Of a DNA stretch of 64,000 nt, positions 26,788 through 27,573 are shown one piece after another. Numbering within the stretch: the first letter of the stretch is position 1; each line of letters opens with the position of its first letter. This DNA is from Candidatus Thioglobus autotrophicus. Its GTDB lineage: Bacteria > Pseudomonadota > Gammaproteobacteria > PS1 > Pseudothioglobaceae. Location of the stretch: contig JAKUUR010000003.1 of NCBI GenBank assembly GCA_022448455.1, forward strand, positions 1 to 64,000. The letters run 5' to 3'. A program made the position numbers and the translations under genes. The notes beneath the pieces are model-generated. The model had not been told where the DNA came from and did not search any database. It was given only the letters and a program-made list of their open reading frames with translations.

Positions 26788-26824
26788 AGAATCTCTAATT
26801 ACTGTTCTTGCTTCTAAGAAAAAA

Positions 26825-26842
26825 ACCCGCCTTTAGGCGGGT
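26825..26842. terminator. Bidirectional terminator between dapD and the first small membrane gene
   Basis: Stem ACCCGCC, loop TTTA, stem GGCGGGT. The minus-strand reading is followed by a run of U (complement of the A-run at 26819-26825), and the plus-strand reading by TCTTTT. It therefore ends both dapD and the 73-residue gene that faces it. Confidence 0.92.
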
Positions 26843-26867
26843 CTTTTATTGAGTTAATATGTTACTT

Positions 26868-27089
26868 TTAACGTGTAAATATCTTGTAGATCAAGCCCGC
26901 TGCAACCAAACCAACCAGGTTGGCGGCACCAAGCGAACTGATTATTCCAGTTAGGCTGCCAATGATGTCCCCAGGAAGGAACGCAGCATCAGCACCAAAG
27001 ATTATCTGTACAACTACTGCAAGAGCAATTACTGCAACACCTGCCTCAGTTAACTTTTTGATCCATCCAATTATATTATCCATTAACAT
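26868..27089 (-). CDS. Small two-helix membrane protein (copy 1), unknown function
   Basis: A 73-residue hydrophobic protein that I do not recognise. After a short amphipathic start (MDNIIGWIKKLTEAG) come two membrane-length hydrophobic stretches, about residues 17-33 and 50-68, separated by a conserved FLPGD turn, with a basic end (YKIFTR). The ATG at 27089 is seven bases from a GGAG ribosome site; a second ATG two codons on is less well placed. It has its own promoter, a 5' hairpin and a strong terminator, which together suggest high expression. Its neighbour at 27267 is a paralogue identical at 57 of 73 positions. Confidence 0.85.
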   Translation of the reverse strand: MLMDNIIGWIKKLTEAGVAVIALAVVVQIIFGADAAFLPGDIIGSLTGIISSLGAANLVGLVAAGLIYKIFTR

Positions 27090-27115
27090 AACATCTCTCC
27101 TTTAGAGGTAAAAGA

Positions 27116-27138
27116 CAACCAACATATTCAGTTGATTG
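27116..27138 (-). promoter_or_regulatory. 5'-UTR hairpin of small gene copy 1
   Basis: In the minus-strand RNA, CAAUCAAC pairs with GUUGGUUG (one G-U pair) around a seven-base loop. It would begin two or three bases from the predicted transcript start. Hairpins at the very 5' end are known to protect some bacterial mRNAs, such as ompA, from decay; that role here is inferred. Confidence 0.6.
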
Positions 27139-27146
27139 ATGCACTT

Positions 27147-27173
27147 TTTATAGTATCAAAAACATTGTGTCAA
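27147..27173 (-). promoter_or_regulatory. Sigma-70-type promoter of small gene copy 1
   Basis: On the minus strand, TTGACA (27168-27173) is separated by 15 bases from TATAAA (27147-27152). The -35 box is a perfect consensus match and the -10 has five of six bases; the spacer is shorter than the optimum of 17. The same arrangement is kept in the duplicate. Confidence 0.7.
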
Positions 27174-27223
27174 GTTTATTAGTGGGGAAATTACAGAAAA
27201 TACTTAAATTAAGGTATAAAAAA

Positions 27224-27241
27224 ACCCGCCTCACGGCGGGT
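27224..27241 (-). terminator. Terminator of small gene copy 2
   Basis: Stem ACCCGCC, loop TCAC, stem GGCGGGT, with a U-run on the minus strand from the A-run at 27218-27224. It separates copy 2 from the promoter of copy 1, so the two genes are independent transcription units. The loop differs from the copy 1 terminator while the stem is intact. Confidence 0.92.
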
Positions 27242-27266
27242 CTTTTATTGAGTTAATATGTTACTT

Positions 27267-27488
27267 TTAACGTGTAAAGATCTTATAGATCAAGGCCGCA
27301 GCAATTAAACCGACTAAGCCGGCGGCGCCAAGCGAACCGATTATTCCAGTTAAGCTAGCAATTACATCCCCAGGAAGGAATGCAGCACCAGTCCCAAAGA
27401 TTACTTGTATAACTATTGCAAGTGCGATCAATGATACACCCGCTTCAATTAACTTTTTAATCCATCCAGTTACATTATCCATTAACAT
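27267..27488 (-). CDS. Small two-helix membrane protein (copy 2), unknown function
   Basis: The 73-residue paralogue of the protein at 26868-27089. Substitutions are nearly all conservative (I/V, A/S, G/A), the two hydrophobic segments, the FLPGD turn and the YKIFTR end are unchanged, and there are no gaps. This pattern indicates selection on the protein rather than decay. The ATG at 27488 follows TGGAGAG at the same spacing as in copy 1. It could be a membrane-associated stress, holin-like or bacteriocin-like peptide, but I see no motif that decides between these. Confidence 0.85.
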   Translation of the reverse strand: MLMDNVTGWIKKLIEAGVSLIALAIVIQVIFGTGAAFLPGDVIASLTGIIGSLGAAGLVGLIAAALIYKIFTR

Positions 27489-27515
27489 AACATCTCTCCA
27501 TTAAGTTATAAAAAA

Positions 27516-27538
27516 CAACCAACATATTAAGTTGATTG
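27516..27538 (-). promoter_or_regulatory. 5'-UTR hairpin of small gene copy 2
   Basis: The same CAAUCAAC/GUUGGUUG stem as in copy 1. The stem sequence is unchanged while the loop differs by one base and the flanking leader differs more, which supports the structure being functional. Confidence 0.6.
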
Positions 27539-27546
27539 GTGCACTT

Positions 27547-27573
27547 TTTATAGTACCAAAAACAGTATGTCAA
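27547..27573 (-). promoter_or_regulatory. Sigma-70-type promoter of small gene copy 2
   Basis: TTGACA at 27568-27573 and TATAAA at 27547-27552 on the minus strand, with a 15-base spacer. An A/T-rich tract lies just upstream of the -35 box and could act as an UP element. Confidence 0.7.

Follow-up and report, generated by a model that had tools for sequence, protein, structure and literature searches.

The mechanosensitive channel MscL consists of an N-terminal amphipathic helix, a first transmembrane helix (TM1), an extracytoplasmic segment, a second transmembrane helix (TM2), and a basic end. Short proteins with two transmembrane helices often stabilise large complexes. On the transcript level, a stem-loop at the 5′ end of the ompA mRNA stabilises the message, and in the puf operon, hairpins govern the decay of segments (PMC7509114). 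Two small membrane proteins that resemble these systems in part are encoded in a 64-kb stretch of DNA of "Candidatus Thioglobus autotrophicus", a marine bacterium of the sulfur-oxidiser type, (the window, to which all positions refer). Their family is previously unnamed as far as the open-licence literature goes. Among open-licence papers, neither a name nor a transcript report was found for these proteins, and a review of highly expressed SUP05 genes does not mention them.

Tandem units and their expression signals

The two genes are located on the minus strand in a tandem repeat (286 nt at 85% and 94 nt at 83% identity) with a spacing of approximately 399 nt from start to start, and the pair is flanked by ubiA and dapD. 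Copy 1 (27267..27488) and copy 2 (26868..27089) each encode a two-helix membrane protein of 73 amino acids, distinguished by the motifs VTGW and AGLVGL in the former and IIGW and ANLVGL in the latter. The proteins share 78% identity, with 16 amino acid differences and no gaps, and of the 34 codons that differ, 18 still encode the same residue (dN 0.11, dS 0.57, dN/dS 0.19, NG86). Among relatives, dN/dS is 0.15 to 0.21 (0.21 for copy-1-type sequences), and the range over all comparisons is 0.10 to 0.21; the sequence type of copy 2 also occurs in single-copy relatives. By these values, both copies are under purifying selection. The initial annotation had described two hydrophobic 73-residue reading frames in tandem units, which differ without gaps and are both under selection; the frames and the whole repeat were confirmed, and the selection was borne out by the values given above. 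The host genome of the window contains these two family members only. A clean single-duplication history in this genus was not adopted, because a tree of 72 columns cannot separate one duplication with gene conversion from two duplications.

Upstream signals were counted across the Thioglobaceae copies, which have 51 distinct upstream regions. The −35 box TTGACA (27568..27573 in unit 1 and 27168..27173 in unit 2, minus strand) is identical in all 51. The −10 box was identified as TAAAAA (27545..27550 and 27145..27150, minus strand, spacer 17 in both units). Boxes of this type are placed 17 nt from TTGACA in 46 copies and 16 nt in five, and TAAATT is found in the most divergent copies. Of the TTGACA/TATAAA promoter proposed initially, the −35 box stands, whereas TATAAA (27547-27552 in unit 1, minus strand, spacer 15) lies 2 nt upstream of the −10 box that the 49 other copies show to be conserved. 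The pattern TTGACA-N(14-18)-TATAAA occurs at just these two places in the 64 kb (0.12 expected), and the longer pattern CTTGACA...TATAAAAAGT is likewise confined to the two units in the window and did not occur in shuffles. With a promoter score of 11/12, both units were the best of 22 operon starts checked. The other 20 scored 8–10, which corresponds to background, so that the earlier description of the region as otherwise nearly free of consensus promoters is fair.

The leader comprises 44–50 nt and contains a short hairpin of eight pairs (27516..27538 in unit 1 and 27116..27138 in unit 2, minus strand). With few exceptions among the copies, the hairpin starts no more than a base or two from the predicted start of transcription. 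A single leader hairpin taken alone has no significant stability (z about −1). In the alignment of 23 distinct leaders, 89% of the cells are paired and 15 double changes are present, while slid pairing reached at most 56%. An attenuator reading of the hairpin was rejected because a long T run follows it in copy 1 alone and this feature is thus not conserved. The Shine–Dalgarno sequence is GGAGAG (27494..27499 and 27095..27100, minus strand), and a G-rich site precedes 51 of 51 distinct Thioglobaceae copies. Each unit ends with an intrinsic terminator (27217..27241 in unit 1, ACCCGCC-GTGA-GGCGGGT followed by a T run, and 26818..26842 in unit 2, minus strand), and a GC-rich terminator was found in all 50 Thioglobaceae copies with enough downstream DNA. 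The 5′ hairpin at the transcript start, the consensus ribosome site, and the strong terminator of each unit, all part of the initial annotation, hold across the Thioglobaceae copies, the hairpin both by its position and by its compensatory changes.

As in the 5′ UTR of E. coli ompA, a stem-loop at the extreme 5′ end and a strong Shine–Dalgarno sequence precede the gene of a presumably abundant membrane protein, but in the family the hairpin and the leader are as short as given above and the product is a two-helix inner-membrane protein. By analogy with ompA, the hairpin may stabilise the mRNA. The expression signals in the sequence point to high expression of both units. Codon usage neither supports nor opposes this: it carries no expression signal in this genome region and barely separates the Calvin-cycle genes either.

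Distribution in Thioglobaceae and in a second marine order

The family was found in 49 of 83 Thioglobaceae genomes (SUP05/Arctic96BD-19 group); named contigs among the matches include Candidatus Thioglobus sp. AH-558-A21 and SCGC AAA007-O20. Genomes of the window's genus (g1) mostly carry two or three copies; those of other genera carry one, which at a locus outside g1 (L043) is likewise flanked by ubiA and dapD. One locus (L008, G007:C1:416240-417290) contains a tandem array of three rather than two copies, and genomes G883 and G892 contain four family members each. In several relatives, the ubiA–dapD synteny is retained around an empty or decayed site. At this junction in two g9 genomes (L109/G065 and L112/G069), the gene is broken by frameshifts or stops and the terminator is intact; in L114 (G067), the gene is gone and the terminator alone is left. 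These three loci capture the loss of the gene in progress in related lineages. The family is absent from all 12 g5 genomes and from 11 of 12 g8 genomes, which, judging from genome size and completeness, probably belong to clam and mussel symbionts. In lineages that are probably intracellular symbionts, the family is missing or decayed.

A profile built from Thioglobaceae members only and searched in other gammaproteobacterial families reaches a second marine gammaproteobacterial order (that of G113 and G363), with genomes of 0.7–1.8 Mb and 33–34% GC in the loci read. This order is probably SAR86. Matches were obtained in 84 of its 101 genomes, including 36 of the 39 near-complete ones, nearly all with two members; an overlapping sample gave 99 of 121. 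Comparison of the Thioglobaceae profile with two SAR86-like subfamilies by hhalign yielded probabilities of 97.7% (E 1.4e-12) and 97.1% (E 7.1e-11), and 98.5% was reached between these two subfamilies. Scores of 13 real sequences were 27–40 bits, and the maximum among approximately 6,500 hydropathy-preserving shuffles was 19.3. Profile–profile comparison and shuffles together show that the Thioglobaceae and second-order pairs are homologous as judged by sequence. Homologues are therefore widespread well beyond one strain, a point on which the initial annotation had made its view depend.

Smaller sets of relatives were detected in G184/G300, G420, and G307. Other samples of the class and the phylum yielded no convincing members, and the family is absent from most sampled gammaproteobacteria; the phylum-wide profile matches in other lineages either were fragments of long proteins or scored near the threshold, and were dismissed as noise. 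No neighbour gene is conserved between the lineages in the loci compared. The G307 homologue (L046/L098, ~1152-1719) carries a long repetitive lysine/threonine tail (KTKTKT...) after the second helix, which is absent from the other relatives read. In G420 (L047/L124-L125), a divergent tandem pair devoid of the FxGDV loop is located between DUF2235-like and speE-like genes, with just a weak fold between the two genes.

Most loci in the other gammaproteobacterial families again hold pairs. In all distinct SAR86-like loci read, gene A with a very G-rich (GGGGGA-type) Shine–Dalgarno sequence is followed after 39–55 nt by gene B. The gap folds into a hairpin with an energy between roughly −16 and −21 kcal/mol, and B starts soon after it (e.g., L096, L044) with little or no Shine–Dalgarno sequence. 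A similar hairpin (−17) is found in the 59-nt gap of the G300 locus. From the hairpin and the weak ribosome site of B, much more A than B is predicted, and A would accordingly be the major and B the minor product in the SAR86-like order. In the window's genus, unlike in the SAR86-like pairs, the two genes form separate, equally strong units. The paired, hairpin-separated relatives in the second order are an addition to the initial annotation. The paired retention in both lineages suggests that two forms may be useful, either as dosage or as partners. The light-harvesting genes of the puf operon are also tandem genes of small membrane proteins, and the SAR86-like pairs resemble them in the separating hairpin between predicted major and minor genes; however, puf is not related to the family in sequence, and no photosystem genes occur in the stretches read.

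Protein architecture and possible role

Family members comprise approximately 72–80 amino acids with the pattern IFG-x(2-6)-F-x-GDV-...-LG-xx-GL-xx-L, which is looser in G420 and G184/G300. The layout common to the subfamilies is an amphipathic N-terminus, TM1, a loop with GD, an amphipathic helix, a GxxG kink, TM2, and a basic C-terminus. Hydropathy and moment were profiled separately for three subfamilies (A1, A6, and A7). In all three, the moment was approximately 0.43–0.63 at the amphipathic N-terminus and 0.41–0.45 at the second amphipathic stretch, the loop after TM1 carries a conserved Asp, and a polar/glycine kink precedes TM2; none has a conserved charged residue inside a TM span. The positive-inside rule predicts an N-in/C-in topology with both ends in the cytoplasm. 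AlphaFold models the monomers with low confidence (pLDDT 58.5 and 57.6) as a pair of long helices without a fold match in the PDB, and for these reasons the models were left out of the argument.

Searches of Pfam, NCBIfam, PHROGs, PADLOC, the PDB, phages, plasmids, and viral contigs gave sub-threshold or unrelated matches only, in agreement with the initial annotation, which had recognised no family and would have been contradicted by a clear match to one, such as a described toxin or holin. A TrbL/VirB6 assignment was rejected, its score (16.9 bits, E 0.0055) being under the Pfam cut-off of 25.9. The F-type ATP synthase subunit c, which served as an unrelated two-helix control, is similar in its length of approximately 75 amino acids, its two helices, the short polar loop, and presumed abundance. 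It was rejected as well, because the family has no conserved carboxylate (Asp/Glu) in TM2 and the hhalign probability was 0.15%.

At a probability of roughly 40%, we tentatively regard the family as inner-membrane proteins that are abundant, assemble with themselves, and play a structural part in free-living cells. The proteins, mostly kept as pairs, would be made in bulk by free-living marine gammaproteobacteria and would assemble in their cytoplasmic membrane. Many copies would pack via the GxxG/LGxxGL face with its small residues, and the resulting homo- or hetero-oligomers may line or shape the membrane in a structural (proteolipid-like) rather than enzymatic manner. Such a role would be needed in open water and dispensable within host cells. 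This reading is favoured by the signals for bulk synthesis, the motif of a self-packing type, the lack of conserved charges in the TM spans and of a conserved neighbour, the two co-retained forms, and the loss in lineages that are probably intracellular.

An oligomeric pore or channel, in which the amphipathic helix and the GxxG kink act as a re-entrant or interfacial gate and A and B subunits co-assemble, is possible, though we consider it rather unlikely. The order of N-terminal amphipathic helix, TM1, helix, Gly kink, and TM2 in all subfamilies measured recalls MscL and minimal two-TM channels, and paired paralogues would suit a hetero-oligomer. The proteins share the amphipathic N-terminus, TM1, TM2, and the basic end with MscL, but they are half as long and do not match the Pfam model of this channel; nor was any other Pfam channel family or any PDB entry matched, by sequence or by fold. 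A two-TM potassium channel was rejected, because the sequences contain no TVGYG-type K+ filter. Strong expression units are also unusual for channels, and the high abundance suggested by the signals is the main reason for preferring membrane shaping over a channel. A more specific form of the pore seems improbable: a minimal two-subunit channel (TM, re-entrant helix, Gly kink, and TM, with chains of approximately 73 residues) that two dominant uncultivated lineages of the ocean would produce in bulk, one of them setting the major/minor dose by the intergenic hairpin.

The family might also provide a small accessory subunit to an abundant respiratory, rhodopsin, or transporter complex of the membrane whose genes lie elsewhere, in line with the stabilising function of many short two-TM proteins. 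High dosage would fit an abundant partner, whose gene would not have to be local. We nevertheless think this unlikely, as no neighbour is conserved between the lineages, two divergent subunits at apparently unequal dose do not resemble a 1:1 subunit, and most sampled gammaproteobacteria lack the family. A phage-derived holin, a toxin, a bacteriocin-like peptide, or a T4SS-type two-helix pilin is very improbable. Apart from the TrbL match, such an origin could draw on a single weak hit to a holin (PHROG 1299, phrog_1299, E 0.77), which was rejected; nothing was found in the viral contigs, phages, plasmids, or PADLOC searched. The fixed ubiA–dapD position on the chromosome in the Thioglobaceae loci examined, the purifying selection, and an N-terminus that does not look like a signal peptide argue in the same direction.

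The family matches no model tried and points to a function of ocean bacterial membranes. Almost all near-complete genomes sampled from one major marine order, probably SAR86, contain its protein pair, and the family is also present in most free-living Thioglobaceae, where promoter, leader, ribosome site, and terminator are all conserved. With some Thioglobus strains in culture and the gene lost from likely symbiotic relatives, the question of function is testable.
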